Source: Branchiostoma floridae
Lineage: Eukaryota > Chordata > Leptocardii > Amphioxiformes > Branchiostomatidae
Length of the DNA: 64,000 nt
NCBI RefSeq assembly: GCF_000003815.2
Contig: NC_049996.1
Span: forward strand, 10,151,503 to 10,215,502
Direction of reading: 5' to 3'
The position numbers and the translations under genes were made by a program. Shown here in pieces: positions 9,968 through 63,805 of the stretch. Under the pieces are notes generated by a model. The model was not told the origin of the DNA, searched no databases, and saw only the letters and a list, made by a program, of their open reading frames with translations. Numbering within the stretch: the stretch's first letter is position 1; the number at the start of each line of letters is the position of its first letter.

Positions 9968-12117
9968 CTAATGTGGGTCAAATCCGATCACCATCGTCTC
10001 GATTACAAAAACGATGAATCGACTGTAGATTTCCTCATACTTGATAGTGAAGCGATCTTCCAAACACTCCTGTACACCAGCGAGGAAAGCAGCCTCTATC
10101 GCCTGTAAGGCAATGAGAAAGGTGGAGAAGTTGCCTATAAACTTTTGCATGTATATGCCATTTTGCTCTGCATAAGAAATCTTTCCATTTTCCAAGAGCA
10201 CTGAAGATCGTAGTACAATAAATATTAAGACACCTAGAACTATTCTTGAATGTCTCATTCAAGAAAACGTAAATAGAGATCTAAGAAATGACCATGCACA
10301 CCAATACCCTGGGGAGCAGATTCTCTGGCAAGAACGCAATTCTGATTGATGAGGGACTATACTAGGTCTTCAACTGCAACACGTCTGACAGTAATTTGTC
10401 TGCCAGGAAGCCTTAGAATGCTTCGATTTTTTTCCTAAATAAAAACTCTGTAAAGTGGAACAACATACCCACACATCCTCCGGCGTCATGACGTTCATGT
10501 CAGAGTGCTGGCGTCCAAGTTTGGTCAGCTCACTGATCACGTGATCCAGGTCTCCCAGGTTATCTATTATGTAATCCAGGCAGTCAAAGATGCGCTCACC
10601 TGGGGTAAAACATTTCGTCATACAACATTTTGTATTGTTGTTACATGTGTATAAGATTTCTATCTTAATCGTGCAAATTAGATCATACTGTGCGAGACAG
10701 TCCTTCAGCACTAAGGAAAGGGATGGTACAGGATAGAAGAAGGTGGGGCAGGGCTATCGGCACCAAGGAAATGGATTAAACAAGATGGTATAGGATGGGG
10801 ATGGTCTTTCAGCACCAAGGAAAGGGATGGTACATGGTGGGGAAGGTCCTTCAGCACCAAGGAAAGGGATGGTGCAGGATAGTACAGGGTGGGGAAAGTC
10901 CTTCAGCACCAAGGAAAGGGATTGTATATGGTTGAACAGGTCCTTTAGCACTAAAGCTAAGGATAGTATAGGAAATGAGTGGTCTTTCAGCAGCAATGAA
11001 AGGGATTGCACATGATGGTACAACATGGGGTGGGTTTTCGGTACATGTATTAAGGACAGGCATGGCGGAGAAAAGTTCTTCTTACCTAAGAACTTAATAT
11101 AAGGGCTTGTCGGTATTTCCTCCTCGGTAAGAAGGCTGATTCTCGGCCACTTCTGCCGCAAGCCTGGATTGTCCTGCAGCATCCTGTCAGGGCAAATGTA
11201 TAATCATCATAGTTGAATATTGAATATTTTTTGTCATTAGATAAAACATAACTTCTTTGGGTCTGGCAACTTGAATCGGACTAGCTTGCTAAAGAGAATG
11301 AAATCGATCCAACAGTTTGAAAGTTGAAACGTTGTAATATAACGTTACTGGTACATGTATTTTACATCCAACGAGGAAGACTTTCGATGAAATCGCTGAT
11401 CTGACATGTTTTTCAGGGTTAAATGAACATCTTTGTGGATGGAACTTTCTTAGTGATAAACTAATCGGCTTTAGCCCATAAATAACGTGTCCTGACGGGC
11501 ACATTTGACTCAGCATCCTTGACTGGAGATAAGCAGCTTAGAAATGGTTTTATGCTGTCTATAGGCTTATACAGACATAACTGGTGTTGTAATGGCAGAT
11601 ATATTATGGTACACAAACCAAGACCGTGTAGCACGAATATAATAACCCTAGCATGGTATACATAGAAAAATAAGCCCATGGGAAAGGCTTTCCTCACTTC
11701 ACTCAGGTGAAAATGAGTACCTATCTTCGGTTAGGACCGTCCCTCTGAAAGCTTGACGTTGAATGGAGGTCCCTTGTTTGAGGAGACCCACGCCTCAAGT
11801 ACCTTAAATAACCCACCACACTTATCGAAAAGAGATGTGAGTGGATGAAATAAATCTGTCCGGATGTGCAACCTGTCCTGTTTACCAAATACGCAATACA
11901 AACAAAGAAACAAAGGCTGTTTATGCATGGTGCGTGCTTACCTCAGAAACACGGTCCTGGCCGCCTGGTCCGACTTTCTCGCCACGGTCTTCCACGACTT
12001 CTGCAGGTAAAACCTCTGCCAGGCGTCCAGGGGAAGGCGCCAGTCCTCTCTGTCACCGATACCGGGGCTTTTGTACAACTCTGAACGATCCTTCCTGGTA
12101 CATAACATAGGAACCAT
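9968..12117 (-). CDS. Globin with unusual haem-pocket residues, 4 exons
   Basis: Exons in transcript order are 12117-11942, 11183-11086, 10599-10469 and 10102-9968. All junctions are GT-AG and in phase, giving 540 nt (179 aa). The fold is recognisable: LQKSWKTV for helices A-B, NPGLRQKWP for the C-D region, FLGERIFDCLD for helix E, then NLGDLD, and LGRQHSDMNV, where H123 aligns with the proximal F8 His. The last exon AIEAAFLAGVQECL...IETMVIGF is a typical G-H helix end. Aligned by eye to neuroglobin and myoglobin, CD1 is Trp (W71), CD4 is Ile (I74) and distal E7 is Leu (L91). The first exon may start at ATG 12117 or be entered by splicing (an AG lies at the gtaccag near 12098), so the N-terminus is uncertain. 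Confidence 0.85.
10704..11010. repeat. RE1-like minisatellite in a globin intron
   Basis: About seven units of 42-52 bp lie in the second globin intron. Each centres on TTCAGCACCAAGGAAAGGGA or a variant, starting near 10704, 10756, 10808, 10850, 10902, 10943 and 10985. The units at 10808, 10850 and 10902 contain the exact 12-mer TCAGCACCAAGG that recurs elsewhere in the window, but have GGAAAG in place of GGACAG. Confidence 0.85.
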
Positions 12118-13301
12118 TATATATGTAAAATCTACCCTTAGATTTAAGCATGTATAGTGTCCTACCGTCTAATTTGCAATAAGAAAGAGTTGTCGAGAAA
12201 GTGCTTGGAAAAGAATGCATCAAGCAGTGTATGTGCGTCGGTTATGCAAGCTCTAACTCTTAGCAGAAAGCTGCACATTTTGCCAGCCAGATAGAAATCA
12301 ACGATTCTAACCAAGAAAGTCTATGACAAGGACAAGGCCGTCTGTAACGTTATACATACACCTACTGACAGTATCAGCGTTTTACCCACCTTATAACTGA
12401 CGAGAGCGCCTGTCCGTCCGTCGACATTTCACACCCCATGTTGATTCAACAGTTTTTAACGGCTTTGGTCGTACACGTTTTAACATCAGTGCTTTTACAA
12501 AGCTGACTGCCGCGTGTTTCAGGAAGATAGAATTGAAGGTTGTGCAACATTGCTTCGTTAAAGATACGCGAACTCTTAACACTTTAAGCCTATTACGCCC
12601 CTGTGTTCACAGGTAATGTTTGAATTTGTTTATTCATGAGAAGGCATGAAGTCCGCTTTTTCTTCAGGTCATGATGGCCCCAAGAAGAAGTGACATGCAG
12701 GACATCTCATGAATAAACATGAAGGATGGGGTATATCAGATCTGTTGTAGGACGTCTGAGTGGATGAGTGGAGAAAAAAATTCCATAGCAATCCGTCATG
12801 GCATCCTTGATGTCCTCGTTCAAAGTTCAAGGTAGGACGTTGACATGCATGAAAAAGGCTTAAGCTTAGCACCCATAGAGGGCATGACCTCACATTAGCT
12901 GCAGCAATGACATCATAGATTTACGCGTTAAACAAGGGTAATAAAGGCCATGAATTCATGTGTTGAACAAGGCGAAGGCCAGCTAATCTATAAGAGGATT
13001 CACTACAATTCTTCTAGTTAGGTTTCCTTTTCGCTCAAGGACGCGACAAAAATAGCATCCGCGCACGCGCTGATTTTTGCTGGTTTTTAATAAAAGATTG
13101 ATATTTCCCTCTAAAGAATGAAGGCTGGGAGGGTAGTTTGAGGACTGAACATGTTTTAGGAGAGGTACAAACCAGTGAAACTTGTCATGACATTTCCAAT
13201 ACATATAATAGAAATAAGTGTAGAGCAATACCAGACTCGCAAAAGTTCTGATATTTGGGAGGTCTGTGGTGTTACCAGAAAAATGTTTCTACTATTTCTT
13301 C

Positions 13302-13600
13302 TATCTATAATGGCATAATCGTAATAGCATTTGTAATGCAGGTTGAATAAAAAATCAATTGAATATACATTGCATTATGCATCTATAGGCAATTACAATC
13401 CGTTATCCAAAACCAGAACCATTCGACATTAATTGTTTTTACAATGCATTTAATTTGCATCGTATGAGGCTTTGAAAATTGGCCAGACTAGTATGAATCT
13501 ATTAAGCTGGAAAATCTGCTTGTAAATTTCGTGTAATGATTGTCTGCTGACGTATTTAATTGTTCCACAACTGTATGTATATACATGGTTACAAGTAGGC
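13302..13600. repeat. Upstream copy of direct repeat flanking the NHL gene
   Basis: Starting with atctataatggcataatc, this block aligns colinearly with 18946-19250 at moderate identity (tttaatttgcat, ggccagactagtatgaatct and gaatgattgtctcctgac-type phrases are shared). It lies about 450-700 bases upstream of the NHL gene start codon. The match is divergent, so the duplication is old. Confidence 0.75.
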
Positions 13601-13973
13601 CTTTGCAGCACTTATATCACAGCACCACGAACCAGCACGACTGGCATTCTCTACATAGGGAGAGTGATAGCCGAATTTCATGGTTCGTCTCTGTAGCAGA
13701 CGGAATAATCTGTTCATTTTCGAATCAGTCCAGAATCCGGTCCACTGATTTTTTAGGTCTGTTTTTTTGGACTAGTCCAACATACGACGTTTTAGTCCAG
13801 GCACCGTTCTCACAATGCATAAGCTATTTTTCTGACAGCCTATCTCTCCAGCCTTCCCGGGAGCGAAGTTAACGTAACTGAAACACCACAGAACAATTCC
13901 CCGACGTGCGCTAATGGGCCTGGGCGGGAGGGCAACACTCCCATCACCGTAGAGTTACCGGGAAGCTTCCGAT

Positions 13974-14008: not shown

Positions 14009-14024
14009 TGGCGACTCAGATTCC

Positions 14025-17000
14025 ATGGATCCAATAACAGCCGACGACTCTGACTGTGGCGCCGGCTATGACATACCCACCAACATGCAGGCCGCACACG
14101 CAGACCTGTCTCATGTCCGTGACTGTCCTGACTCTACACCAGAACCTGTGGTTCAACATGAGGTTCAGCCCCAGCGCCGCTCATACCGGTCCAGTCTAGC
14201 GGGACAAACGGACGCCTCGCCCGGCCACACAGAAGACCCGTTACCGGACGTCCGTAGCGACGCTTCGTTTGAACACTCTAACCTGGATGACGGACCGTGT
14301 TTCAGTCCTAACAACATTGGAGACCGTCCATCGCAACCGGTAAGCTGTAGTTCTTATAAAGTCAGTGACACTGAACAGAATCAAGCACTTTATGTTGATA
14401 ATCCACTCGTAGAAGCAGAAGAATCCCCGTCAAAACAAATCTACGGTACTGAAGTTGAGAACGCAGAGAGCGTAGTGCAATACCAGCAGAGGGGTTCCTG
14501 TCACAAAGAAGCACTGTCCACCTGCTATCAATGCGACCGAGATGTCGACGATGCCAGTACGGACAGGCAAGATGTCGAGGACTGTGGTGCAGACAGCGAA
14601 GCCGAAAACCATGAAGTTCAAACAGAAACTGTCGCCCAACAGTCGGAGGATGTAGAAAGCTCTAGTCAGAACAGAACAGAGAGAGAAGTTATGTCTGATG
14701 ACGAGTGTATCCGTCCATATGCAGTCGCTTATAACCAGGATGACGAAGATGCCTGTGACATCCAACCATACGCCGTTACTTATGAAGAAGGCGAAGGGCA
14801 ACTCAACACCAGTTCCGGTAAGTTACATTCTACCCACTTACAGCTTACTGATCAGTAACTGATGGGTCATTACATTATACAAGTTTACTACCACTAATGT
14901 GGCAACTATCCTTTATGAAAACGAATAAGTGTCCCTTTTCGTAACGAAGCCACCATTAGGCTAAGTCTGCATTGGAAAAAGGGGTCCTGTTGGACTAGTC
15001 TCTACCAGAATCTGGGTCGCTGGAAAACGGAGTGTAGCCGGCTATATGATAAGTAGCAACCATATAGACTTTAATAACGGCCAAACCTTTTATATTTTAG
15101 ATATAGCTTCTGCAAAACAACAACGTCCCGACCCCATACACAGCGGGAACGCGTCATTTCCCAACCCCATGTACAGCGGGAACGGGAACGCGTTACATCC
15201 CAACCCTTTGTATGCCCCAAATGCTGCACAACCAATGGCAGGTAGAGGTAAGATACGTTTAAGGTTCTTCAATTTAGTTATGTTATGCCTAGGTTACACA
15301 TAGTCGAATCTAGCTCCCGACTCTCTCCTGACTATGGTTAGCAGTGATTCGGGAGCTAAGTTGGCTGGCGTTCGGCTGAGTCGGCTCGTGTTCGGCTGCG
15401 CCATCCGAATGTTTTGAAATGTTCAAAACATTCGGCTCTGAACGGCGGGTCTGGAATGGGTCGGTTGGTGGTTGGCTGGTATTCGGCGCGGTTGGCTAGT
15501 GTTCGGCTGGTGTTCGGGAGTAAGTCAGCAGTCAAATTTAAATCTTAGCCAAGCCAGAAACAACTACTGACTTACTCCCAGCTTGTTTCCAACCTACCAA
15601 CGATTCACACCCAAATTGTAGACAAGTCTCTGCTAACTCGTTCCCAAGCAAAATGACTATTACCAGGACATAGGCGAATCACCCCCGAACTTCACAAGAC
15701 CGACATCCAGCCCAAAACATAAAGAGCTAACTGTGATCCAAGTTTGATCTCTTGGTGATAGAAGAAAGGATTATTTTGATTGAAAGCAAAATAACCATTT
15801 TTTTCTTAAATCGCTGGTTATGTTCATTTCAAGTCGTGAGAGGGTCAGCAATCGGTTGGGAATCTGTCAGGAGAGATTTGGCAGTCTGTGTTAGAGGTTG
15901 GGATGGTTGGGAATAGGTTAGATAGCATTCGGGACACAGTCGGGAGTAAGTCATTTACTGGTCGGGAGATGATTAGGACATGTTCGGGACATGTTCGGCG
16001 CTAAAAGATAGGCGTGGCCTAAACTGGTCAGACTGGTCCCGAACTGACTTCCGTTTTTTTCCTTTTTTGCTTTCCAGGCCAAACGATGTCAGCGTCCTCA
16101 TTATTTTAGGTGTATCTGTTGCCGTACTGATTATCGGTACAGCTTTCTTCTTAGGAGCAGCGACAGGGAAGCAAGATAGTTTTACCTCAACGGTGAGTTG
16201 TACATTTCGATAGTAAAGATATCAAACATCAGTACCACTTGTAATTGTTATTTGTATTTGGATACATAACATAACATAACATAACATAACATAACATAAC
16301 ATAACATAACATAACATAACATAACATAACATAACGATACATACTGTGTCACTGACGAAGGATAGTGGATTCTATCCGAAACGTCTGACCGTTTCAAAAC
16401 CATATCCAGTTGCTTGAGTAACTATTTTTTGGTGTATCGTATTACCTGGATGTCTAACCTACATCGACGTATAACGATACATAGTAGTAACGTTGTGTAT
16501 TGATGTATATTTATACTATTCTCAGGTGTAGCGCGCGTAGTAAATGGCGTTAGTGTCCCTACCCCTAACCGGGAGCCAGACAGGACCGGGTAGCTAGCGA
16601 GTTTTGTTCGGGGAGCCAAGGCAGTCAGCCCTCACATTAGAGCCCCGGGGAGTTTAGGCCCAAAGACGTTGTAGGGCAGGTGGAACTAATCGGGCTTAAA
16701 TTCCCCGGGGCGCTACTAGGAGATCGGCGGGCCTGGCTGTCTTGGGCCACCGAATAAACTGCCCTAGCTGCCCTATCCCGTCTGGCCCCCAGGGTACCCT
16801 ACCTCGGACCTAGACGTCTCGTTGCTAAGCTGAACCTGTTCGAGGTCACTTTCACTCAGGTTGTTCAAGTAAGTAAACGACACTTTCTTTTTTTGTGTGT
16901 GTCAGGCATTGCCGGACCCCACCTTCACAACGGAAACGGACGGAAGCCAACATGTGGACTACACGTCATCTCATGTGGACTACACGTCACCTCATGTGGA

Positions 17001-18146
17001 CTACACGTCACCGCATGTGGGCTACACGTCACCTAGTGTGGACTACACGTCACCTCAACCAACCAGCACCACTGAAGGTAAAGAATGTACTTCGCACACG
17101 CATTAGAATAGATAGCAAATAGATATAGAATAAAACACGGTGTATTCCGTATCACCAGAGATACCAGCCCGAACCTTGGTAGGATCGCCCGACGCCAGTT
17201 CAAATGATGCTTTTCCTACTATAGTTGCTAAGCTAAAGAAACGCTCTCCTGAGCTAACATGTTTGCCTTCACAGTAGATTGATCGATGCTTTGATTTTGC
17301 TCTTTCTCAGGAAAAGAAAACGAAGAGGTGAAACAGACGACAATTGTGTTTGGTGGAAAGGGACAAGAACCGGGTATGTTCGATGAGCAAGGTGGTGTTG
17401 TCGTGTCGCCTAGCAACGAGATATTTGTAGCTGACGCCAAGGGGGTTCAAGTGTTCAGTATGAAGGGCGTCTACCTCCGGAGATTCCCGACTACGACACC
17501 AGACTACAAATGCGAAACGATGGTTCCGGAAGGCCTTTCTATCGACGGGAAGGGCCATCTGTGGGTGATAGGGGTCTGTTTTCCGACTCTTGTGAAGCGC
17601 ATTGTTCGGTACACAAAAACGGGACATCACCTAACAACATTACATCCCCCCATGTCTAGATGTTTCTATAGCATGACGGTGGACTCACTTCGCAATCGTG
17701 TCGTAGTAATAGAGCGTTTCATTACCTCTTCATATCTTACGGTTCTGCAGTTTAACGGCACTGTTCTTCACACGTTCAGAATGGGGCGGGGTGTGGCCTG
17801 GTCCGGTGGACTGGTCTCTGTAGGACGGACTGAAACCTTTTTTGTGTCCGATCGCAGGGCGGGAATTAATAATATATACGCGTTTAACGAAGCCGGCCAT
17901 TTCTTGTTTAGGTTTGAAGGTGATTTGCTGAGAAAAATCACGGGGATGTGTACGGACAGTTCCGGTAACGTTCTCGTAGCTGACGGGGCAGGAGGGAAGG
18001 TGGAACTGTTTACCGAGGACGGGCGGTACGTTCGCCGGGTCGCGTCTGGCTTGCACAGAGCTGACAGTGTAGCAGTAGCGCCGGGTGGTCAGCTTGTAGT
18101 AACTAATAATGACAACGGCACGGTCACCATATTCCCAGATTATTGA
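14025..18146 (+). CDS. Single-pass membrane protein with NHL-type beta-propeller
   Basis: Exons: 14025-14817, 15101-15247, 16078-16192, 16906-17077, 17311-18146. The protein is about 687 aa. Exon 1 is acidic and Ser/Asp/Glu-rich, ending with the repeated motifs RPYAVAY and QPYAVTY. Exon 2 carries NPMY and NPLY. These look like cytoplasmic tyrosine docking motifs. There is no signal peptide. Exon 3 encodes one hydrophobic span (VLIILGVSVAVLIIGTAFF). Exon 4 is a short stalk with five HVDYTSP-like repeats. Exon 5 is a six-bladed-type NHL propeller (for example PGMFDEQGGVVVSPSNEIFV and ITGMCTDSSGNVLVADG). By inference the propeller is extracellular and binds a ligand while the tail signals. The exon 2/exon 3 phases disagree by one base, so a small exon is probably missing from this model or the locus is shifted. 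Confidence 0.85.
15250..16077. repeat. TTCGG-rich repetitive intron sequence
   Basis: The intron between exons 2 and 3 of the NHL gene is full of short phrases such as gttcggctgg and ttcgggagtaagtcag. Several occur in inverted orientation, for example cgggagtaagtcag against ctgacttactcccag. It looks like a degraded inverted-repeat element or minisatellite. A missing small exon could hide here. Confidence 0.5.
16266..16335. repeat. (ATAAC)14 microsatellite
   Basis: Fourteen uninterrupted ATAAC units lie in an intron of the NHL gene. Confidence 0.98.
16340..16490. repeat. Dispersed repeat, copy 1
   Basis: The phrases cgaaacgtctgacc, ccagttgcttgagtaact and attacctggatgtctaa recur at 44590-44740 and, in reverse orientation and more degraded, at 24440-24590. 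This is a dispersed family of about 150 bp with no coding capacity seen. Confidence 0.7.
16941..17055 (+). repeat. Coding 21-bp minisatellite (stalk repeats)
   Basis: Five units of catgtggactacacgtcacc (period 21 bp) lie inside exon 4 of the NHL gene and encode HVDYTSP-type heptads. Because 21 is a multiple of three, copy number can vary without shifting the frame. The Thr/Ser/Pro content suits an extended, possibly O-glycosylated stalk between the membrane and the propeller. Confidence 0.9.
17125..17215 (-). repeat. Dispersed GC-rich repeat, copy in NHL intron
   Basis: Read on the minus strand, this contains ggtgatacggaatacaccgt, a GGGCGATC box and gttcgggctggta. The same elements occur on the plus strand at about 39050-39130 and 38670-38745 inside an intron of the EGFR-like gene. 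Confidence 0.65.
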
Positions 18147-20074: not shown

Positions 20075-23000
20075 ATGGCGTATCACTGCCCACACTTACA
20101 CACGGCTTATCCAAACTTAATGGTTCCAAACTTAAGTGTTAAGGTAAGCAATGTTATCTATAAATTTTTCCTAATACGAAATACAAGTTTAGCTCTTTAC
20201 ATCGATGCAAAGGTTCCTGAAATGAATATTGTATGTACATGTGTGTGCGTGCTTGTGTTTGTGTCTCTCTGACTAAATTTCCAAATTTAGGCCATGTTGA
20301 TGACGGATGACATCAGCGCGCGGATCAATTTTCGGGAGTTAAAAAATCTACCATGCTTTACATCGTACAAAGCAGCTGCAAAGTGAGTAAATATATGCCG
20401 TGAGTTTTAAAAAAAATGGGAAAACATATAAAATGCCAACATCATTCCAAGGTCAAAGAATATGTGAAAGAACAAAATTGAATATTATTGTTCGGTATAC
20501 CATTCTCTGTATGTTTTGGTCATTTGTTCAACCATCCTAATCACGTACATTTCATGATGGAGGCTTTTTTGGGACCAAACTCTTTCATTACTCTGAAATG
20601 TCTCATGGACTAGTTATTTTTTGTCATTTCAATTGGGTCATGTTAAATATATAAACTAGGTCCATATTTCTGTTTGGAAAATAGTAGCCATTTGAAAATG
20701 GGCCTTATTAGCAGAACAAAAATCAAGATTATAATTGTTAAAAAACAAGGCCATTTCACTTGCTACAATTATGTGTATGTTGGACAAGCAGTATGGCAAA
20801 TTTTCAAAGGACTGACCTAATAACATAAAAAGACATCCAGCATCTGATTCAGAAGGTAACAAGTAAAGCTCTTTTGCAGATTTCACCACGCTTTTGTGGG
20901 CAACAGAAATTGTAGGTGTTAGTGAAAGGCCCATGAGATGTTAACTCCTCATCATCTTAAATTCATTGAGTTGATTTTATTTTCAATTGACACTTCAGTT
21001 TACTTTTAATACTTCTTATATTATGCTTGTACATTTATGTTGACTTATGTTTTTGATTGTTTTGTAACCTTGGACTGTAAAAATGGACTCCAGGAAGAAC
21101 AGATTTTGCGAGATACTGTAAAGTCTAATGGAGATCTAAATAAACAAACAAACAAGCAGTCTTGTCTCAACCACTGTTTTGATTTGTTTTGTTTAACAGT
21201 GTCTAGAACATAATAACATCTGCAAAACTAGAAAGGCCGACATTTGCTTGAGAGCAAATACAGCATATTTCAGCCATCTCCCTCATGCAACAATAGGCCT
21301 TGAGGTCGTGGACCCCTTTGGCCATTGGAAAATGGCCAAAAAAATCCCAAATATATCATTTTAAAGTGGTCCATGCCAAAAATTATACATGGGTCATTTT
21401 AATAGATATCTAGAGCACCCCTTTACCAATTTACGGGTCATTAGGTTGTAAATCGAGGGAACAGGAGCCAAAAATGTCCAAATTTTGTCAAAAAATGGCC
21501 ATAAAATCGCAAAATTAAGCATTTTGTTGTACCGTATGGGAAAACTTTTATTGAATTTATGTGCACATAATTGAAGGGCACTTTTATACCAAATTTCAGA
21601 TCATTTGGTTGTAAAACGAGGCTACAGGAGCCAAAAATGTCCTTTTTTTGGTCAAAAAATGGCCAAAAATCGCAAAATTAAGCATTTTGTTGTACCGTAT
21701 GGGAAAACTTTTATTGAATTTACGTGCATATAATTGAAGGGCACTTTTATACCAAATTTCAGATCATTTGGTTGTAAAACGAGGCTACAGGGGCCAAAAA
21801 TGTCCTTTTTTGGTCAAAAAATGGCCAAAAATCGCAAAATTAAGCATTTTGTTGTACCGTATGCCCAAACTGTTATTGAATCTAGGTGAGCATATGATCA
21901 AGGCACCTCTGTACCAAATTTCATGTCATTCGGGTGTAATACCAGGGTACAGGAGCCCGAAATATACATAAAAATTGACAAAAACCTCAATAAAATCATT
22001 TTAAAGGTAGATATGAAAAAAATGAAAAAAACACCTAGGGGTATTGGCTTACTCTACCTTTGTGCCAAATTTCAAGTCAATCGGTTAAAAAATGGCGGAG
22101 TTGATTCGATTTGAAGATTTGACAGGAGAAAGAAAGAAAGAAAGAAACATTACGAATACAATATATTTCACCATACCTATGGTATGGCTGAAATATAATG
22201 ACAGATTTTGATGCTTGATGATGATGGAGCTTGAACCTTTGACATATAACCTGCAATCCTGTTGTGCGCACATGCATAGTAAAATCTGCAAAAGAGATTA
22301 CTTGAAAGTAATGGATTTGCAAAACAAAGTCCAGATGTGCTTTGTTTATGTCTCAGGGGCCTTCACCTTTGAGATATTACCCACATTTCCTGTTGCTGCA
22401 CATACAATGTTTGGAGTTGAAAGATCTTAACATGTAAATGAAAATATAGGGCAAGGAAAAAAGCCTTGCGTAGAAAACATGGTGTTATGTATGAACTTCA
22501 GCACCAAGGACAGGACCAATATGACTTTCATAATGCCTTCCCTCTAGAATTTCGTTGCCTTCTCCAACCTGTTGAAGTCAATTAAGGTATTTAGCAGTCC
22601 TTAGGACTAGGAAGAGATGTTGTGTTTCAGATTACGGTCTTGAAATAATTGGTCGGTGAGGGATTCTCTTTTTTTTATAGATTTCAACCGATGGGATCCA
22701 GCAAATACTCTTTAGCATTGATGATGTAAACTGAAATGCATCAAGACACCGGTAGTTTCCCCAACACACTCAAATTTCTAGTGCTGTGAAAATATCTATT
22801 CGGCCTGCTTCATTTCTATTCAAGTAAAAAAAAAACGGTTGTCCTTTCTTATAAAGAATAAATGTATCCACAGATTTGTAATCATTATTCACATAATTTA
22901 AGTTTGATATTGAAAAAATGATATAAATGTCCTTGTGCTCAAAAAAGATAATCCTAATGACCCTATTTTTCCAGGACTGAAACAGGAAACAAAACTGTTT

Positions 23001-23683
23001 TCCTTGGCCTAATCATGAAAATGACTTCTAGCAAGATAGAATGGTATTGTAGGAAACTGATTTTTTTTCTGGTAAGCAAGGTATTTCAAATCTACATTCA
23101 GTTACATGTATCTGTGAATAATTATTTCAGAGATCTTTCTCTTGATAAAAAGATCATCATAAACTCTACACTCACATCTTAGTGCACTACACTAGTACTT
23201 GTGCTGTCAAATTTCTATCTGACAGTGTTTTTATCTTAAATCTTCCGGTCAATTTATCAAGTTGAACCTTTCCTTTATGGTGCCCTTTTGTTTATAGTTG
23301 TCAAATTTGGCCAGTATCTTTGTACCCCCCTCCCATGAGGGGGGTATTAGCAACCACTCTAGATAGGTTTGACTGAATGAAGGTTTGACTGAATGAAGAA
23401 GCATAAATGAATCATGAAAGATTCTAATTGTAGTTTATCAGAGATGTAGGTGTGTAGTTAAAACATTGTCTTGTCAGCTTACTTGAAGATATACTTGGTA
23501 TGTTTAGAAGTTTGTGTGTGCATAGAATTATTAGTCGGTTCGAAAATGACATGTTAATTTTGTAATTCATACAAACATTAGTGTTTTGACTTGCTAAGAG
23601 TCTCCATGGAAAACGTCTACATAGTTTTTGTGATTTTGACTGACAGAATTGTTAATTTTTTTATTTACAAGGTGCTGAAGTAA
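20075..23683 (+). CDS. Possible small 4-exon gene, 89 aa, unidentified
   Basis: Exons: 20075-20143, 20291-20382, 22975-23071, 23672-23683. They join with GT-AG introns and consistent phases (0, 2, 0) into 270 nt ending in TAA. The protein begins MAYHCPHLHTAYPNLM, continues MTDDISARINFRELKNL and TGNKTVFLGLIMKMTSSKIE, and ends KLIFFLVLK. Exon 3 has a pyrimidine-rich acceptor and a gtaagc donor. I do not recognise the family. The 2.6 kb middle intron contains the 162-bp tandem array. Short exons can align by chance, so this is tentative, and the last 4-codon exon is the weakest part. Confidence 0.35.
21300..22150. repeat. Tandem array, ~162-bp period, about 5 units
   Basis: aaattaagcattttgttgta recurs at about 21512, 21674 and 21837, and ccaaatttcagatcatttgg-type phrases recur in step. 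The outer units are more diverged. The array ends in a (gaaa)n tail at about 22130, which suggests a retroposon-like element that expanded internally. No convincing protein was found. Confidence 0.85.
22497..22517 (+). promoter_or_regulatory. RE1/NRSE-like site
   Basis: TTCAGCACC, two bases, GGACAG, then GACC. Both half-sites of the REST consensus are intact. It lies in an intron or intergenic DNA. Binding is not shown. Confidence 0.5.
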
Positions 23684-23699
23684 GATAGAACAAGATGAA

Positions 23700-24370
23700 C
23701 GTCCACTGCAGACTGACATGCTGTGTAAGATCTGGCTGTAGAGGGCACCAGGTGATTGGATACGGCGGATACAGAGTATATAGGTGAGAAAAATCTGTTC
23801 TGCATTTTACCTACCATTTCCTTTGAGTTAATTCAGACAAGTGTGTAACTTGTAATGTCTGTATAGTTAGGTATCTGCTGACTGATGCAGTAGTGAGGAC
23901 TTCTGTCTGAACCTGACAAGACTGGATTGAACCAGACCATACTAGGTGATTAGAAGACCAAAGAAGAGTAGCAGGTGAGAAAAATGTGAATTTTGCATTT
24001 AATGTACAATTAACTGTGTATTACTTGAGACAAGTGAATAACTTATACTGTCTGCACTGTGTAGTTAGGTGGCTGCTGACTGTTGCAGTAGTGAGGACTC
24101 CTGTCTGAACCTGACAAGACTGGATTGGACCAGACCAGACCAGGTGATTTGAAGACTCAAGAGGAATATCAGGTGAGAAAAAAATTACCTACCATTTTAT
24201 TGGTGTTATTCAAGACAAATGTGTAACTTGTTCTGTCTGTATAGTTACAATGTAGGTGCTGCTGACTGATGCAGTAGTGAGGATTCCTGTCTGAACCTGA
24301 CAAGACTGGACCAGACCAGATCAGACCAGGTGATTTGAAGACAGCAGAGTGAGATCAAAGTCTACACAGG
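23700..24370 (+). repeat. ~195-bp tandem units with conserved splice donors
   Basis: Three full units (23783-23971, 23972-24171, 24172-24369), and a partial one before them, share tgatgcagtagtgaggact and cctgtctgaacctgacaaga. Each ends exactly at AG|gtgagaaa (gtgagaca in the last). They resemble a duplicated non-coding exon with its donor. The next open frame with an ATG begins at 24626. Confidence 0.75.
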
Positions 24371-24439
24371 TGAGACAATCTATGCTTTACAAGATGAGGG
24401 TCTAGCACTCTTTCACTTTCTTTTGACTGTTCATGGAAA

Positions 24440-24590
24440 CAACACGCTACGTTTGTCGATAAAGGTCAGACATCTAGCTAATTAGATATGCCAAATAGCA
24501 ATTACTCATTGACAAGCAATTAGATCTGATTTTGGAAATGGTTAGACGTTTCAAACAACATCTGCTGTGTTTCATCAGACCACACCTCAC
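24440..24590 (-). repeat. Dispersed repeat, copy 2 (degraded)
   Basis: Its order of phrases (gtcagacatctag, gcaattactcattga, ggaaatggttagacgtttc) matches the reverse complement of 16340-16490 with many substitutions. Confidence 0.55.
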
Positions 24591-24625
24591 TCATATATTG
24601 TTCACTTCTTAATACTTCTAACAAG

Positions 24626-24886
24626 ATGCAAAGTAATAGGTGCATAAAAGTGTTTATTGTGTTTATTGTGTTTTCCTTGGCACTTGTTGCCTATTCTTAC
24701 CTTGTATATATTTACAATCCTTTGATAGTGTGTCCTGATGGCCAGCTGTCCTGTAGTAACGGGGAGAAACCTGTGATGACAAGCAACTGTTGTCTAGACC
24801 AGACCAAGGCCTGGAGACAGTGGACTGTAGCATGGTGGGAGGAAGAAGACTTTTATCAACAGAGCTGTGAAAGAAGATGGGGAGTC
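24626..24886 (+). CDS. Candidate signal-anchor exon, unidentified
   Basis: ATG 24626 opens 87 codons ending at GTC|gtgagt in phase 0. Residues 6-30 are a strong hydrophobic segment (CIKVFIVFIVFSLALVAYSY) after a short basic N-terminus, as in a type II membrane protein or signal peptide. A Cys/Trp-rich part follows (CPDGQLSCSNGE, SNCCLDQTKAWRQW). The upstream exon-like repeats could supply its 5' UTR. Downstream exons were not found and I do not recognise the family. Confidence 0.35.
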
Positions 24887-27139: not shown

Positions 27140-27450
27140 GTTTTGTCATTACACATTGTTTCTAGTTCTTCTTTATGCTTGCCATTTGTATTTGTCACAC
27201 ATGTTTATTTCTAAACCGAATAAAAGCAAAGGTTTGACTTACAGTTTTGTATCTGTCATTATTTTGAATTGGTGCAACACATTTACTGTTAATCTTCCTA
27301 CAATCTCAGTCAATAAAGTGGCTTTGCAATTTGTATTGTTACATGTCGAATCATATTATCATTTGGTAACAATGACAGAATTGCATGACAAAGAATTGCA
27401 TGACAAAAAATTGCATAAAAAATTGCATAAAAAATTGCATGAAAAATAAT
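27140..27450 (+). repeat. Dispersed block A1 (paired with 44955-45240)
   Basis: tttgtcattacacattgttt, aaagcaaaggtttgactt and gtcattattttgaattggtg are shared with 44955-45240 in the same order and orientation. Inside its 3' end (27378-27446) is a short tandem repeat of aattgcatgacaaa-like units. Confidence 0.85.
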
Positions 27451-45240: not shown

Positions 45241-45363
45241 TAAATTTGTGGTTTGCGGGTTCACAGGACTCCATGGGTAAGTAATCACCACGTTGATTGT
45301 GATCATAAACAAACTCAGTTGTGCTCAGTAAGACAACCTGATCAGTTCTTTCTATTTGTGCCC

Positions 45364-45506: not shown

Positions 45507-45635
45507 ACACAGAAAATGTGACGTGCAAACAGACAAAATATTCCAGTCACCATTCTCACGGCAGTAAAAATGGGAGAACATATAACTTAACAACCAGATC
45601 GTGCTCGGTAAACACAATTCCCTCACAGTCAAAAT

Positions 45636-45656
45636 TTCTCTGTCCTTGGTGCTGAA
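45636..45656 (-). promoter_or_regulatory. RE1/NRSE-like site
   Basis: On the minus strand: TTCAGCACC, two bases, GGACAG. It is the counterpart of the site at 30720. Confidence 0.5.
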
Positions 45657-46220: not shown

Positions 46221-46241
46221 GTCAGCACCAAGGACATGACT
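46221..46241 (+). promoter_or_regulatory. RE1/NRSE-like site, right half degraded
   Basis: GTCAGCACC, two bases, GGACAT. It is the counterpart of the site at 31245, with a changed last base of the right half-site. Confidence 0.4.
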
Positions 46242-46410
46242 AATACTACGTTGCCTTTTTTTCAGAACTTTGCCTCATCCTAACCTCTCTAAGCAATTTC
46301 CGTCAAATGACACCAATGATGACAATAACAACATATGGGTTTGTATTTTCAACAAAAATATCAACATTTTACAATGTTGTTACCTGTTTCTGATTTTAAT
46401 AGCACATATA

Positions 46411-50100: not shown

Positions 50101-51562
50101 AAAAACCTTACCTAACCCTCATATTTGGTTACTGGTTATATGTATAGCTGTCATTCAAAAGTTTCATTCAAATTTTTTGCTCATTTTGCTATAAACATAG
50201 ACCACATTAATTTTTTTAAACAAATGGCTGAAATTCAGAGAAATTCAGTTTAAATCATCATCATAGTTTAGAGCTGGTATTTGCAGATAAAAATCAAATT
50301 CAAGTCTTAAAAGCTTTAGAGTCTTGCAGCAAAGTTTCAAAGCTGTAGAATTCCAAGGTAGACATTTCTAAAAAAAAAACACATTTTGTCTATGGCTTGA
50401 GTAGAATCCAAGGTAACTTAGCTGGCAGTTCAGCACATCGATCTTCCAATAGTAATATTTGTTTTAAATTCAACATACAAGTCAGAGATAGAGATAGAAT
50501 AATGCTTCATTATATCTACTGTGAAACAAAAAGGTATCAAAACATGGATATTTGCCTGCAATGACATTGATGAGCATTGCGTCATACAGTGGGGAAAATG
50601 CATCACTCAGAGTCTGAAAGTTAATACATCAAATAAACATGCAGATACCAATCTTTTATATACCTGCTGTTTTAGTTTTACAAACACCTTGTACAAGTAG
50701 GAATGATGTTTCTTCCATTATGATTCAGGTCTAAAGCACACATGCAAAAGTACATTGAAGCATAAGGTGTGTACAGCTTTAACTCAATGAAACTTGTAGA
50801 CATATTTGTATTAGGAAAATCAATTCTTGATAGTTTTATATGGTATAGAGTATTAAAGGGAGAGGATTGATTAAAAGATAACTAGAGTCTCAGAAACTCT
50901 AAGATGAAAAATAGCAAACAATAACATGAGAATAAGAAAGGCAACATCTACAGAAGATTTTTTTTCTGTACTTAGAGGTTAAGGGGACAAAAAGGACCAG
51001 GAGTGTGGAAGTGGAACTCAGAGAATTTGGCTCAACTAACTTATCAATCATCACACGGGATTCAGACAACCCATACTGCATGTCATAGCAGGTTCAAAAG
51101 AAGAAGGTAATGATAACAGTTGTTAAATTTCACAACTACCTAATTCAGAAGTAATTGGCACTGCCAAAACTCAATAAAAACATTCTTCAGCATGATAGGA
51201 TGTCAATGGGAGAGAATAAACAACTAGATTATAAATAAAACTCTAGAGTTCTAGAACTCTAGAACTCCACAAAAGCAAAGAGAAACATTAGGATAAGATG
51301 GCATTTGTATATATCACTACAGAAGATATCTTCTACATTTTAGAACTAAATGACAAGGAGGCAAAGAGGCAAGAATTTCCAAGAATGCCAAATCCGTTCT
51401 TTATGACAACACTGAGTTGAGTTATCAACACTCACAGAACCTGAAAATAAAAGCAGGACCAAAAGATATAAAAGATAGCAATATGATTTGTTCCATCATA
51501 ACTAAGTAATTAGCCTTGCCAAAACTCCATCGATACTTATTTCAGTGTTAGTAAACTGAGAT

Positions 51563-51583
51563 ATCAGCACCAAGGGCAGGACC
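51563..51583 (+). promoter_or_regulatory. RE1/NRSE-like site
   Basis: ATCAGCACC, two bases, GGGCAG, then GACC. The right half-site differs by A to G. Confidence 0.4.
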
Positions 51584-53085
51584 AAACGAATCAGAAAGAC
51601 GAATTAAATCTAGTCACATTTTAAATGACAATATTCTATCACACAGCCGCCAGTCAACAAACAGTCATTGCAATCTGTATATTATGGATTTCAGAACTAC
51701 ATACAGATTTAATGGCAGTTGCAATTAACAAAGCAGGAATTTAGGATTGATGGATGACCCAAAGTAAAATCCATCGTAGAAAGAAGTTATAAGAGAACAT
51801 CACATTGAATTAAGTGAGTTAACTACATGGCATAACTTGCCATGACTTTATAACAGGCTTGAATATGCATAACAAGCAGCCCTTGCATGGTTGTTATACC
51901 AGTGATATAAAGAAAGCTACTGGTTACTTTTAACAGAAATTGGTTAAGTTTGTCGGACAAAAACCTTCAGAGGAATGTCAGAAGAATTCATAACAAGGTT
52001 TGTTATTCTATTCTGTCTGTGATACGGTTTCCTTAACAAAATCTTATTCATATGAATACAGAGGAAAATGATAGAGGCAGACTCAGACTGTTTAAAACAT
52101 TACAAGCAGATATCTTAGGTAAATAGTCATTTATGTATATACACACCAGTATAGCATAGGGTTCAGAATGAATGTCAGGAATAAATGATGGCACAATTTT
52201 TCATATCTTATATCATCAATATTACTCAAATGTAAGGAGAAAAATGTTCTCAGAAAAGGGGTATCATCACATCTGCAGATTATGTTAGCAGCCAAGTCTT
52301 AAATTCATAAATGAGCAATAGTTGATCAAAAAGTAAGAGCATTCATGGAGAATGGAATAAAGGCTTGTTAAAGCCAAAGATTATTTTGGCTTACGTAAAT
52401 AGGAATTCCATGTCTCAAACCGGAAATATGACACCATCAAGATGTAATTTACTTTTAATAAATGCCAAGAAGAAAAGATATCAAGAGAAGTTGAGACAGG
52501 AAAAAATCTTACAACATGTTCCGGTATTATATCATTATTATAAGAGGATCATTATCAGTCACATCTACAACCAGCAACAAGGTATATGTTTATCATTATC
52601 ACCATACTACTAGCAATAGGTATGATTCTTGAAATCAAACATTCCGTTCATAAAACATAACCCACAGATCTAGACACATTCAAGTCTTAGACGTGGTAAA
52701 GGCTGAGAATGAGAGCATTTTAGACAGAAAAGATGATGATAACAGGAAACACAGCAAGCATCTGACAAATCTTATATCATGGCTGAATGTAAGCTCACTA
52801 TGGATTGGATTAGGAAATATAGAGCAATTAAATACTTGCAGTTCATTTTCCATCATATGCAAGGAGTTAACTTACAGATCAACATATCAAGAAATAAAGC
52901 AACAGACCTTCATGCTTGCTGTGAAAGGAGTCTTTCTGTTCAACAGTGATTAACAGTGCACAGTTCTGCTCATGAGAAATGACTTTGAAATTGAATACTT
53001 GGAGTTAATTATACACCGTGAGAAACTTCTCTACAGATCCTGCTTGGATCAAGATATCAGGAAAAAACAGCAGACCTTCATGGCA

Positions 53086-54792: not shown

Positions 54793-54813
54793 TTCAGCAC
54801 CAAGGGCAGATCA
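54793..54813 (+). promoter_or_regulatory. RE1/NRSE-like site
   Basis: TTCAGCACC, two bases, GGGCAG. A decayed copy (tttcagttgaaggcag) follows about 200 bases later, near 54996. Confidence 0.4.
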
Positions 54814-57777: not shown

Positions 57778-57798
57778 TTCAGCACCAAGGGCAGATCC
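57778..57798 (+). promoter_or_regulatory. RE1/NRSE-like site
   Basis: TTCAGCACC, two bases, GGGCAG, with the same flanks as the sites at 51563 and 54793. Confidence 0.4.
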
Positions 57799-59679
57799 AG
57801 AACAAACAGTTGATGTGGAAGTTCATTACAGTCACACTTTTGATGACAATGACGCCAGTCAAAAAACAGTCGTGATATTGCCCTACATGGGTTGAATTGT
57901 AAATGATGATTTTTTTTTAAACAAAAAGACCTAGCATGCAATATGATTCTACAATTTTGACGCTTTGTTTTGCAAAAATTCCATCAATCTGATGTCAATG
58001 TGTTCTATTGGGAAATGTCAAATGATGCAAAGCTATCAAAACTAACTCAAAAGCAGAAAAGTTACGTAAGGATTTGGTCCACCATATAGACATGCAATGT
58101 CTGCTGGGGTTAAAACTGGAGGTCAAGTAGGCATTCTCAAGGAAAGTGCAAGTATGCAAAGTAGACAAATTCTAATATACATTGTCAAGCAAATCTGTAA
58201 GGATGAAGAAGCTACAATAAAGCTAGATTAGCAATAAATATGCTTTCATATTAAGAAGTGAAAAATCATAGACTAGCAGTTCTAGTAGATGAGAACAAAC
58301 ATTATTCAACAGTTGATCTTCTAAGCAACAACTTGAAGATACAACTTAGTTATTAGATCACTTCTCACCAAAAGAAGAGGGACATTTCTCCAACTCTTGT
58401 ATACAACAGGTTAAAAAACTTTCATTTCAGACAGAAGATAAAGTGGGAAGTTTCAACATTCTAACATCAGATTAAATGTGTGCAAATGGTCCTCTATCTC
58501 AGATCTGATGAAACAACTGTACTTAATGTTTCCGGGCAGAAAATGGACAAAAGTTTAGTAGAAAAAGTTACATACAAATGTACATAATATGTATGTAGTC
58601 AATTGACAATGTAGAGCATGGAAAAACGTTGACAATTCCTGATGACTATTTATGTATTATGAAATTTATGATACACTTCAGATCAATGACTCAATTTGAA
58701 ACTCTTGATTAGTAAATGGGAGCCCTTCTATCATAGAGCATTCAAAAATGGTCCTACTAACTAAACTGCGTCAATGGAGTCCAGATGTATAGTTCCATCA
58801 CTGTGGAACAAATGGAGAACTAAAAGTGTCCATCAAATTTGACTTTGAGTTTGTTTAGCATGTGGAGTATAACAATTAAGAAGAGAAATGTAAGCGTACC
58901 AAAGGCATTCTTCAAGCTAACGAAATAAATAGGGAAATTAGTTAGATGACAAAGACGAACTCACAAAATGATCTTAACTGGATTTCTCTACCTATTAGAA
59001 TATATTCATGGTTACCACAAAAGAATGCAGGTAGCAACACATTACATAAATGACAGAAAGAGAAACTACCTGTATTAGGCTATTAGACTGTGCTGCACGT
59101 TGTGGAGAAAATATACACTGTTGACACTTTCTGCTACACAATCTTTAAAAATTTACATTAATTATCAAACAAAAGATAGAAGAAACAAATTATAAGGCCC
59201 ACATGCTATAATATTGCAAGATGAATCTCTATGACCAACAAATGTTCACAACGTGCATAGGATGCGAGTCCAGACTACTTGAGTCATCTTGCTGTGTATT
59301 ACCAGGAGGTTGATAACAGAAAACATCTTCCAGAAATGACAAAAGGAGAAGGGATAACTGAGCATATTCTCGTCAAGTTGTTGAAATCAAATGGCCACAT
59401 CCCATTATGCAACAGGAAAGTTACACGTTATTTGGAATCTTAATCGATTAAGACTACTTGACTCATTATAACAAGTAGATTTGAGGAATGGAACTACAGC
59501 TCCAGTAACAGGAGCAAAATGATAAAATTCCACTGTAATGAAATAAGATATTGTCATTCATTACCAGTATAACTGGTAACTTTCAATACCAAAAATGTTG
59601 ACAATATTATCTACTATCTTGGATCATCTGGAAACAGAACTTGACAATACATTATACCAGTGCATTGGAAAACTGAAAT

Positions 59680-59700
59680 TTCAGCACCAAGGACAGTACC
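59680..59700 (+). promoter_or_regulatory. RE1/NRSE-like site
   Basis: TTCAGCACC, two bases, GGACAG, then TACC. Both half-sites are intact. Confidence 0.45.
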
Positions 59701-60490
59701 AAATATGGTTAAACCTGATGGAAAACGGCGCTCCTGTGAAAGACACATCCAGGGAAAAATAGTCCCAATGTCAACCTAATGAAGAGATGCCGGCCCACAT
59801 GTACAATATATATTTGTCTTCAAATAGCCAGAATAGCTGGAACCGTGTCAAGGAGTAAACTTAACTTTAAAGGAATATTAGAAAACAGCTCCTCCTACCA
59901 GGATCGATCCATCCAGGGACATCTAGTCCCAATATCAACCTAATGATGAGTTTCAGGCAAAAATGAGCACATGAAAGAAGAAATGGACACAGCACAGTCA
60001 TATTTTAAATGACAACATTCCAGTAAGTCAAGAAACATCTCTGATGTTGTCCTGCATGGCATGAATGGTAATCTGTGTTCCATCTTCAGTTTCACAACAG
60101 CATAATTCCATGATTATTGGTGATTAAAAGCCAAAATTTCAGTACTAAGGCATGAACAATGAACATTATGTCCTTGGCTGTTACAGTCAAATTGTTTAAA
60201 AGCAATATTTGAGATCATTTAACAGTCTAAAGAAGAGGAAAAGGGCCCAAAAGCCTGATTATGTCTGAAGATGAAGACATAACTCACCACACTTCAAGTC
60301 AAGTGTGCAAACAAAGTTGTTATGAATCAATATGTTTAAAGAATGTAGTATATATGTAGGTTTTGGGGGCATATGTCAACCATATATCATTAAAAAATGG
60401 TCTGTTATTCAGAGTAAGTAGCCTAGTAGTTATCAGTTTGTCTCACTGAAGACTTAATGACAGACAATAATGACACAAGTTCTGTGATAT

Positions 60491-60511
60491 ATCAGCACCA
60501 AGGGCAGAACC
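60491..60511 (+). promoter_or_regulatory. RE1/NRSE-like site
   Basis: ATCAGCACC, two bases, GGGCAG, then AACC. Confidence 0.4.
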
Positions 60512-62480: not shown

Positions 62481-62822
62481 AACAAATGTAAAATATCAAA
62501 ATCAAAAGAATATGGGATATTTACATAGATACAATAGATAGATTTTGAAAGGGTGATGGCTCTGAAAATGGCTGCATAGGGGACAAAAATTATAATAGGT
62601 TGAAGTATTCAACCAGTGGATGGTAATTTTGAATGCAATCATGGGTTTCACATACTTAAGAAATTTGACACAATTAGAAGTGTTGAGTATCACAAACAAA
62701 AACACAGACACACTTGATCAATGATCATATTCACAGTGCCATGCCATGCATGTCTGGGTTGTGGTTTATGATCAGACTACAGAACATAGGAAAGGGATGT
62801 TACTACTCTGAAGTAGTTTTGG

Positions 62823-62843
62823 TTCAGCACCAAGGACAGGACT
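62823..62843 (+). promoter_or_regulatory. RE1/NRSE-like site
   Basis: TTCAGCACC, two bases, GGACAG, then GAC. Both half-sites are intact. Confidence 0.5.
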
Positions 62844-63784
62844 CAGTATTCATAAATTGCAGGACTAAAAATAAGCAATGAAAATGAATTGAATCTTTAC
62901 ATTTTAAACAAAATTCCAGTATTTTCTTTAGATTTAATATACTACATGGACATACAAGAAATCTTTCGACACAAGTATTCACAAGGCCATTTGGAATAGC
63001 TACTGGCTGGATGGTCGTTTTATCAGGTATCTGTAGTGCATATTACTTACAAAGTCGCTCAGGCTGTTCCAGCCATATATCAGAATCAAGGGGAATTCTA
63101 AAGATTTCCAAGGCACTTTGTACAATTGTTCCACACAGAAATCAGGCAATTTTATCTCTAGAGAAGTCATTCAATAAAGCAAACTGTTACAACTTCTGTA
63201 CCATAGGCAGGAAACAACTAATGGAGGAACAACTTTATGTCTTAGAGTAAGGATTCGAAAGTTATTGTAATTAAATCTGGACACTTTGTAAAATTCAGTA
63301 AGAGGAAAGATGCACCACAAAAAAACAATGAAAAAGACTGTAAGTAATCGTCACATTGTACAATATCAAAAAGGGATTTTCCTTCCTTCTTGTTCACAAA
63401 AAATATTCATTTCAGAAAGAAGATCATTAAGAAGATCAATAACAAAAACAAGAAAGAATGTTATGCAGAGTTACCACTTACATCTACAATCTTGGCAGAG
63501 GAAGTAAATGATTAAGAATCAAGATGCTTTTTATGCAGACGATAATGACTTGATGAAAAATGACAACACGCTTCCAAGAATCTTTGATTGAGAGGGCATT
63601 TATGCCTCAAATTAGAAAGTTTGGTAAGGCTCAAATTTCTACGAAACAAAAAACATAGAGCAACCACCAAGCTACCAAAAGCTGGCTCTATGCGGTGCTT
63701 GTGACAATGACTCCGGATGGGGTCTAGACAGTCCTAATGGCTGGACATTTTCTATACATTTGAATAATAAAGTATAATCTTTCA

Positions 63785-63805
63785 ATCAGCACCAAGGACA
63801 GGAGT
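63785..63805 (+). promoter_or_regulatory. RE1/NRSE-like site
   Basis: ATCAGCACC, two bases, GGACAG. Confidence 0.45.

Follow-up and report, generated by a model that had tools for sequence, protein, structure and literature searches.

In the usual view REST and its RE1 sites are a vertebrate system for silencing neuronal genes elsewhere, and the question raised by the 64,000-nucleotide stretch of the Branchiostoma floridae genome analysed here (the window) is why a word resembling the RE1 recurs along it. The initial annotation offered two answers, either a repeat family that distributes REST-type silencer sites around an EGFR-like locus or the functional core of an unknown element. A domain search does find an EGFR-like gene in the window (Receptor L, Furin-like and GF receptor IV domains). 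All 15 exact copies of the 12-mer TCAGCACCAAGG that had been reported are present, 13 on the plus and 2 on the minus strand, three of them in a minisatellite (10809, 10851, 10903) and 12 dispersed; the coordinates of the dispersed sites below are those of the 21-mer and not of the 12-mer.

10700 to 11006, plus strand: minisatellite adjoining a globin match; array at 10700-10951 with periods of 42, 52 and 94
22497 to 22517, plus strand: RE1-like site TTCAGCACCAAGGACAGGACC; a 39-bp stretch across the motif resembles 31245, flanks otherwise unmatched
26985 to 31421, plus strand: colinear counterpart of 44555-46394, with most aligned pieces at 64-76% identity
30720 to 30740, minus strand: RE1-like site TTCAGCACCAAGGACAGGGAT; block homologous to that of the minus-strand site at 45636
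31245 to 31265, plus strand: RE1-like site TTCAGCACCAAGGACAGGGCC; closest in the window to the vertebrate RE1
44555 to 46394, plus strand: second copy of the 26985-31421 segment, by colinear alignment
45636 to 45656, minus strand: RE1-like site TTCAGCACCAAGGACAGAGAA; paralogue of the minus-strand site at 30720
46221 to 46241, plus strand: RE1-like site GTCAGCACCAAGGACATGACT; core altered at one position, paralogue of 31245
51563 to 51583, plus strand: RE1-like site, GGGCAG form; flanks homologous to 54793 and 57778
54793 to 54813, plus strand: RE1-like site, GGGCAG form; flank group with 51563 and 57778
57778 to 57798, plus strand: RE1-like site, GGGCAG form; flank group with 51563 and 54793
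59680 to 59700, plus strand: RE1-like site TTCAGCACCAAGGACAGTACC; short similarity to 51563 through the motif
60491 to 60511, plus strand: RE1-like site, GGGCAG form, from the motif scan
62823 to 62843, plus strand: RE1-like site TTCAGCACCAAGGACAGGACT; right-flank score to 51563 marginal
63785 to 63805, plus strand: RE1-like site ATCAGCACCAAGGACAGGAGT; flanks without a match

At the 12 dispersed sites the motif is followed at fixed spacing, as had been claimed, by GGACAG (7 sites), GGGCAG (4) or GGACAT (1); seven of the 12 read exactly TCAGCACC-AA-GGACAG, and the site at 31245 indeed differs from the canonical RE1 at 2 of 21 positions. The spacer is AA at all 12, AA having belonged to the search key, and a free-spacer scan of the window at up to four mismatches found no spacer other than AA; at the unselected positions C-A-G, 35 of 36 letters are retained across these 12 sites. 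A scan with TTCAGCACCNNGGACAGNGCC at up to four mismatches gave 16 window sites (12 dispersed, four in the minisatellite) against 1 across eight simulated windows, which bears out the excess that had been claimed: simulated sequence yields nothing comparable, and the motif in the window is beyond chance. Mismatches to TCAGCACCAAGGRCAG are distributed bimodally, with 11 exact copies, four with one mismatch (three of these in the minisatellite) and three with two or three mismatches, all within or adjoining the minisatellite, beyond which lies background; intermediate decayed copies are thus missing from the window outside the minisatellite. Besides its three exact copies of TCAGCACCAAGG the array at 10700-10951 holds two decayed ones, with a further decayed copy at 10986, and since minisatellite copies mostly have GGAAAG as the second half-site they are not full RE1 matches. 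The adjoining globin match (minus strand, 10373-10753) scores below the curated cut-off.

The motif is genome-wide and not peculiar to the window. The genome-wide count for which the initial annotation had called was run against a reversed control, and gave 9,356 places in the 513 Mb genome where TCAGCACC and GGACAG stand exactly 2 bp apart with the spacer left free, compared with 1 in the control; for the exact 16-mer the figures are 5,311 and 0. The places examined individually are the first 100 listed for each search, on C1 for the motif searches and on C1-C3 for the wider spacings. Ten spacer types occur among the first 100 listed TCAGCACC/GGACAG places, so that the spacer letters vary, yet with a bias of 57% towards AA. 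When the 23 spacings of 3-25 bp were pooled the same half-sites were found at 605 places (control 29), and 64 among the 100 listed of these also carry a near-canonical half-site at the 2-bp spacing; non-canonical places account for 36 of the 100, at 1-3 per length except for 6 at 8 bp, three of them from one array, so there is no clear excess of wider non-canonical RE1 spacings among the 100 listed. A relaxed vertebrate pattern, TYAGMRCCNNRGMSAG, has 11,350 genome matches (control 65), TCAGAGCCACGGACAG and TCAGCACCAAGGAGAG being among the forms found. At up to one mismatch the 16-mer is found 14,321 times, which leaves, after subtraction of the 5,311 exact copies, 9,010 one-mismatch copies, part of them spacer variants; these outnumber the exact copies, so the dearth of decayed ones seen in the window does not hold generally. 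In 200 kb of random sequence (20 x 10 kb) there were no decayed copies at up to two mismatches.

The likeness to the vertebrate RE1/NRSE, the REST/NRSF site, is close. In both window and genome the left half-site TTCAGCACC and the right half-site GGACAG agree with it letter for letter, and it shares with the lancelet motif a 2-bp spacer of fixed length and free letters, a core that is better conserved than its flanks and possibly a weak GCC tail. Unlike the vertebrate site, the lancelet one has a spacer that is mostly AA, stands in tandem arrays in many of its copies, and comes without a detected REST ortholog and without clear non-canonical spacings, whilst the GGGCAG form that is common in the window falls outside the vertebrate RE1 pattern. 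The lancelet exact-core count of 9,356 also exceeds the figure of about 2,000 characterised mammalian NRSEs given in one account (PMC4777549). The controlled genome count, the fixed spacing (9,356 at 2 bp against 605 over the 23 others) and the free spacer letters strongly support the identification as RE1/NRSE that had been proposed, as far as sequence can carry it; a search of open-licence papers showed no earlier description of RE1-like sites in lancelets.

If the motif were the conserved part of a binding site it should outlast its surroundings. In five aligned pairs from the window the 16-bp core is identical at 16/16 positions in four and 15/16 in one, compared with 64-81% identity over the ±60 bp flanks, which agrees with the earlier statement that the motif is better conserved than its flanks, with the reservation that 12 of the 16 core positions were the search key and that three of the pairs, those within 51-58 kb, depend on one another. 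A wider sample is provided by 35 isolated sites, exact 16-mers from the places listed on C1 up to 10.92 Mb and outside obvious clusters, a set that leaves out clustered sites and later isolated ones and keeps one site, L026, that lies in dense tandem repeats. Conservation at these sites extends one base past the search key on each side, with T at -1 in 30/35 and G/A at +17 in 31/35; beyond +17 it amounts to at most 0.27 bit, and positions +18 to +20 have G, C and C as plurality letters, as in the vertebrate RE1 tail. Flank homology was detected in 1 of 595 pairs among the 35 sites. A conserved core with unrelated flanks would be the signature of a protein-binding site and not of an ordinary repeat, and because the flanks of the sampled sites are unrelated the suggestion of an unknown element with a functional core survives. 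For comparison, GERP scores at human conserved RE1s are reported to be about 12-fold above those of the ±50 bp flanks (PMC4499139).

From the directly observed sequence, counts, spacing, free spacer, unrelated flanks of the sampled sites and same-strand local copies we infer that a protein probably binds the sites with REST-like specificity, that selection would act on the core and that the effect may be repressive. The motif would be a candidate site of RE1 type, bound by a C2H2 protein with multiple zinc fingers; TTCAGCACC and GGACAG are its two halves, separated by a constant 2 bp whose letters are free, and roughly 9,000-11,000 strong copies are present across the genome. New copies would arise largely through local direct duplication, sometimes building minisatellites, after which the flanks would decay whilst selection for binding would keep the core of 17-18 bp. 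The sites are thus most likely RE1-type and read by a putative diverged or lineage-specific zinc-finger protein, and the whole account, an RE1-type binding site with local duplication and selection on the core, is the best explanation we can offer, held with a little over even confidence.

Relics of a single RE1-carrying transposable element family, with the core kept through selection or recent spread, would also place the word at many loci, and vertebrate RE1s have been described as element-borne, with TE-assisted RE1 expansion reported in mammals (PMC4499139). In the window the idea that repeats carried copies with them is borne out by three groups with homologous flanks (51563, 54793 and 57778; the minus-strand 30720 and 45636; 31245 and 46221). 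Flank comparison of the remaining five sites gave no match above the null beyond marginal ones; among these five, short similarities through the motif join 22497 to 31245 (39 bp) and 59680 to 51563 (59647-59703 with 51533-51586). A repeat family around the EGFR-like locus is accordingly too narrow a description, true of these three groups but not of sites that are genome-wide. Homologous flanks, which an element family should leave, are limited to the three window groups and the one genome pair; of 2,162 flank comparisons among 47 sites 8 beat the null maximum, 6 of them among the window paralogues, and the 26985-31421 and 44555-46394 pair, in which each copy carries a minus and a plus site separated by 525 or 585 bp, resembles a segmental duplication, which makes the element family unlikely. 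Still less probable, to the point that we give it very little weight, is that the sites are microRNA genes, the motif representing the mature 3p arm of miR-2060 and being conserved on account of its seed. The 17-mer is contained in bbe-miR-2060c-3p (gttcagcaccaaggacaggc), listed in a small-RNA study of B. belcheri (PMC5650284), with the complete motif present in GTTCAGCACCAAGGACAGGC; however, folding of 17 window copies, each in three windows and at minimum energy only, gave no consistent precursor hairpin, there is no Rfam family at the gathering threshold, and 9,356 copies, many in tandem arrays, are unlike microRNA loci. A microRNA cluster, prompted by miR-2060c-3p, was rejected on the folding of the window copies.

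Human hypervariable minisatellites have a shared core, and by analogy the motif could be what unites minisatellites dispersed through the genome, a core that promotes duplication or recombination, the RE1 likeness being incidental and single copies the remnants of arrays. Many copies do multiply locally, forming minisatellites whose units share one strand: of five array regions retrieved, three repeat every 43 bp and have the core in common but not the linkers, 65 of the first 100 listed sites are clustered, and a search to 500 bp from the 35 isolated sites gave 36 near-copies in the same orientation and 0 in the opposite one, at spacings that include 35, 40, 57 and about 105. These near-copies occur at 13 of the 35 sites, 19 of them at three sites, whereas the other 22 have none within 500 bp, so tandem same-strand copies with differing linkers describe part of the sites. 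Within three arrays the core is kept only slightly better than the linker (0.969 against 0.940, 0.965 against 0.890, 0.897 against 0.889). Lancelet minisatellites have been reported as unstable, and the "mirage" minisatellites of Amphioxus likewise lie within genes, globin genes included, but mirages are described as duplicating exon-intron boundaries with units of 10-160 bp (PMC3087553), whilst the arrays here are joined by a common 17-bp core despite differing linkers. That one-mismatch copies outnumber exact ones genome-wide counts slightly for a minisatellite core and slightly against the binding site. We nonetheless regard a minisatellite core as improbable: neither the window nor the 200 kb of random sequence holds more than a few decayed copies, if any, the two opposite-strand site pairs in the window do not fit it, and a spacer of fixed length and free letters between exact RE1 half-sites is unexpected of a recombination core.

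The binding-site reading calls for a protein, and the initial annotation had proposed a check for a REST-like one. No REST ortholog was detected in the genome with human REST fingers 1, 2-4, 1-8 and 9 as queries, by which a diverged ortholog could be passed over. The finger-1 model PF24540 has 21 genome matches just above its cut-off of 27, the best at 32.7 bits, compared with 93 bits on the human REST protein; fingers 2-4 gave a smooth series of scores (best 59.5 bits), and finger 9, searched without a positive control, gave no match. There are 608 matches to fingers 1-8, several per protein and with only the best candidates scored; the best, at 151.7 bits and 45% identity, stands 26 bits over the next and was judged by eye to have generic lancelet-type fingers. 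As reader, a REST relative that has diverged strongly, or a poly-zinc-finger protein specific to lancelets, would seem more likely than a close REST ortholog. Such a reader would have an invertebrate parallel in Charlatan, a zinc-finger repressor described as the Drosophila counterpart of NRSF, whose DNA complexes were reported to be competed by an RE1 fragment (PMC4777549).

So close a counterpart of the RE1, spread genome-wide in a lancelet, would put the DNA side of the REST system before the vertebrates, and the absence of a REST ortholog match would make the protein side a testable puzzle. Possible, though we hold it only tentatively, is a genome-wide lancelet RE1 code read by a lineage-specific poly-zinc-finger protein that is not a REST ortholog, in which case the RE1 word would be older than REST in its familiar form, or there would have been convergence on a 17-bp bipartite site, with homotypic arrays tethering many repressors. 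The lancelet sites offer thousands of candidate probe sequences as well as natural arrays, and the annotated lancelet microRNA miR-2060 may itself derive from RE1-like sites.

Finally, 3 stretches of a viral collection that served as outside control contain the 17-mer, a number that we take, by judgement and not from a computed expectation, to be at chance level.

A scan of the window for TCAGCACCAAGG recovered all 15 exact 12-mers claimed by the initial annotation, 12 of them dispersed and three within the minisatellite beside the globin match (10700-11006), where the second half-site is mostly GGAAAG. The right half-site of the dispersed copies is GGACAG in seven, GGGCAG in four and GGACAT in one, giving A in eight and G in four at position 13, C and A in 12/12 at positions 14 and 15, and G in 11/12 at position 16; these positions lie outside the 12-mer key, which cannot therefore have biased their conservation. 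At position 17 no letter is found in more than 7/12. The longer word TCAGCACCAAGGRCAG is present 11 times exactly and four times with one mismatch (three of these four in the minisatellite), the three copies with two or three mismatches all fall within the minisatellite or next to it, and at four or more mismatches the counts are near the simulated background. A dispersed repeat under neutral decay should leave intermediate copies.

The motif is real and genome-wide. In the 513.4 Mb genome (431 contigs, the window being G000:C18:10151503-10215502) TCAGCACCAAGGACAG occurs exactly 5,311 times and its reversed-string control 0 times, whilst allowing one mismatch gives 14,321 against 6 in the control, the 9,010 one-mismatch copies, which are partly spacer variants, thus outnumbering the exact ones. 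When the two spacer letters are freed there are 9,356 matches against 1 in the control, with an AA spacer in 57%; the first 100 matches listed have 10 spacer types, and the 35 singletons among them have eight. A relaxed vertebrate RE1 pattern gives 11,350 (control 65), and the comparison with controls that had been proposed as a check comes out strongly in favour of an RE1-type motif. Seven exact 16-mers lie in the window against 0.66 predicted from the genome average (5,311 x 64 kb / 513 Mb), although the sites are clumped, and 20 random 10-kb stretches had no copies at two or fewer mismatches, where about 5.6 are predicted from the one-mismatch count alone. Among the matches listed there are also five TCAGCACC-NN-GGAGAG variants, on both strands, within ~113 kb at G000:C1:2911277-3024001, possibly a local family.

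Mammalian RE1 is described, in excerpts of PMC4777549, as a 9-bp and a 10-bp part joined by a 2-bp linker. Judged by sequence the lancelet motif has this architecture, as first proposed for the window: against the 9,356 matches at the 2-bp spacer there are 605 in total at 3-25 bp (control 29). Among 100 listed of these 605 the optional wide spacings of RE1 show no clear excess; 64 carry, in addition to the further GGACAG, a near-canonical half-site at spacer 2, and the other 36 are spread at one to three per length, except for six at 8 bp, three of which come from one array.

The evidence for constraint on the core comes from isolated and paralogous sites. Thirty-five apparently isolated sites on contig C1 were chosen for an exact 16-mer, which leaves the positions outside it as the informative ones: T is found at -1 in 30/35 and G/A at +17 in 31/35, the next three columns have pluralities of G, C and C, as in the vertebrate tail, at 0.12-0.27 bit only, and farther out there is no clear pattern. 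Flank homology is seen in 1/595 pairs of these sites (L023/L024, 2 kb apart), and against window flanks L017 with site 31245 is slightly above the null maximum, with about one such expected by chance in 2,162 comparisons. One isolated exact site (L022, G000:C1:4329153-4330168) lies within a 192-codon open frame that is coding-like by eye.

With the motif masked and 200 bp compared on each side, clear flank homology in the window is confined to {30720-, 45636-}, {31245, 46221} and {51563, 54793, 57778}, the first two groups being parts of one colinear segment in two copies (26985-31421 and 44555-46394). Remaining scores are marginal, the best (31245/57778 and 51563/62823, right side) having p ~0.003 uncorrected in some 130 tests; unmasked BLAST joined 22497 to 31245 (39 bp) and 51533-51586 to 59647-59703 through the motif. 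Of five aligned window pairs, four agree at all 16 bp of the core and one at 15/16, with ±60 bp flanks 64-81% identical, which upholds the observation that the motif is better conserved than its flanks in several pairs, although nominal probabilities make the case look stronger than it is because 12/16 core positions were pre-selected as the search key. The suggestion that a repeat family distributes sites around an EGFR-like locus (coding blocks with EGFR-type domains lie at 35.0-44.4 kb) agrees with the flank homology in three groups, but is too narrow for a motif found genome-wide. Between the two segment copies, the patch 27202-27289 / 45022-45109 is 89% identical, compared with mostly 64-76% elsewhere.

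RE1-like copies often arise through direct local duplication. Within 500 bp of the 35 isolated sites there are 36 near-copies (up to four mismatches in 17), all on the same strand as the site and 0 on the opposite, at 13 loci with 19 at three of them, where random expectation is ~0.6 per strand for all 35 loci together. Two opposite-strand pairs in the window, 525 and 585 bp apart, show that direct orientation, though strongly favoured, is not universal. A period of 43 is shared by arrays L047, L048 and L049, whose linkers differ and whose core is only marginally better preserved than the linker; other loci have periods of 35 (L036), 105 (L043) and 163 (L050) or mixed (L026), and three loci given to the same program had none. 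Changes among 70 near-copies at 18 loci are most frequent at positions 1, 3, 6, 11 and 17 of the 17-mer.

The small RNA bbe-miR-2060c-3p, gttcagcaccaaggacaggc, listed in a microRNA study of B. belcheri (PMC5650284), contains the whole RE1-like word. It consists of the 17-mer with one extra base in front and two behind, as found in array L047, and we suspect that it is a product of RE1-like sites, perhaps of an inverted pair; window copies gave no consistent precursor hairpin and an Rfam search nothing at threshold.

Binding, function and a reader protein we infer for the motif. The human REST sequence matched PF24540, the first finger of REST, with 93 bits along its first 30 residues, and the genome has 21 matches, all just above cut-off (best 32.7 bits), eight of which, read by eye, are lancelet-type zinc-finger genes, poly-finger or short-array. 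Human fingers 1-8 gave 608 matches (best 147 of 3,707 candidates scored), topped among those scored by C15:4002011 at 151.7 bits, 26 above the next; judged by eye, C15:4002011 resembles generic poly-finger proteins of the YxCxxCxY kind. Fingers 2-4 gave 151 in a smooth series starting at 59.5 bits, and finger 9 no genome match, a search without positive control and hence uninformative. A close REST ortholog is therefore not evident; the reader may be a diverged one, with which these searches are compatible. Many of the 608 cluster on contigs C158, C10, C16 and C323, and L073 (C16) and L076 (C10) read as YKCDQCDYSA-type poly-zinc-finger genes.

Charlatan complexes are reported, in excerpts of PMC4777549, as competed by an RE1 fragment, and excerpts of PMC4499139 put RE1s at about 12-fold the constraint of their flanks and cite TE-assisted expansion. 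The lancelet mirage minisatellites (excerpts of PMC3087553) are different from the RE1-like sites. Portions of PMC3902484, PMC3145563, PMC3485006 and PMC2206037 mention REST and do not describe lancelet RE1 sites, and the whole words REST, NRSF and RE1 are absent from the main text of PMC6292497.

Elsewhere in the window, an EGFR-like gene block is tandemly duplicated (39217-41179 and 41205-43324, pieces 87-97% identical), and 1-613 and 1358-1968 form a repeat pair ~1.36 kb apart with 87% then 100% identity over 300 bp, either a recent duplication or an assembly duplicate. A tandem repeat of four 163-bp units spans 21318-21963, and a 21-bp tandem repeat, open in frame, at 16951-17057 comes just before an NHL-repeat reading frame (17295-18143).
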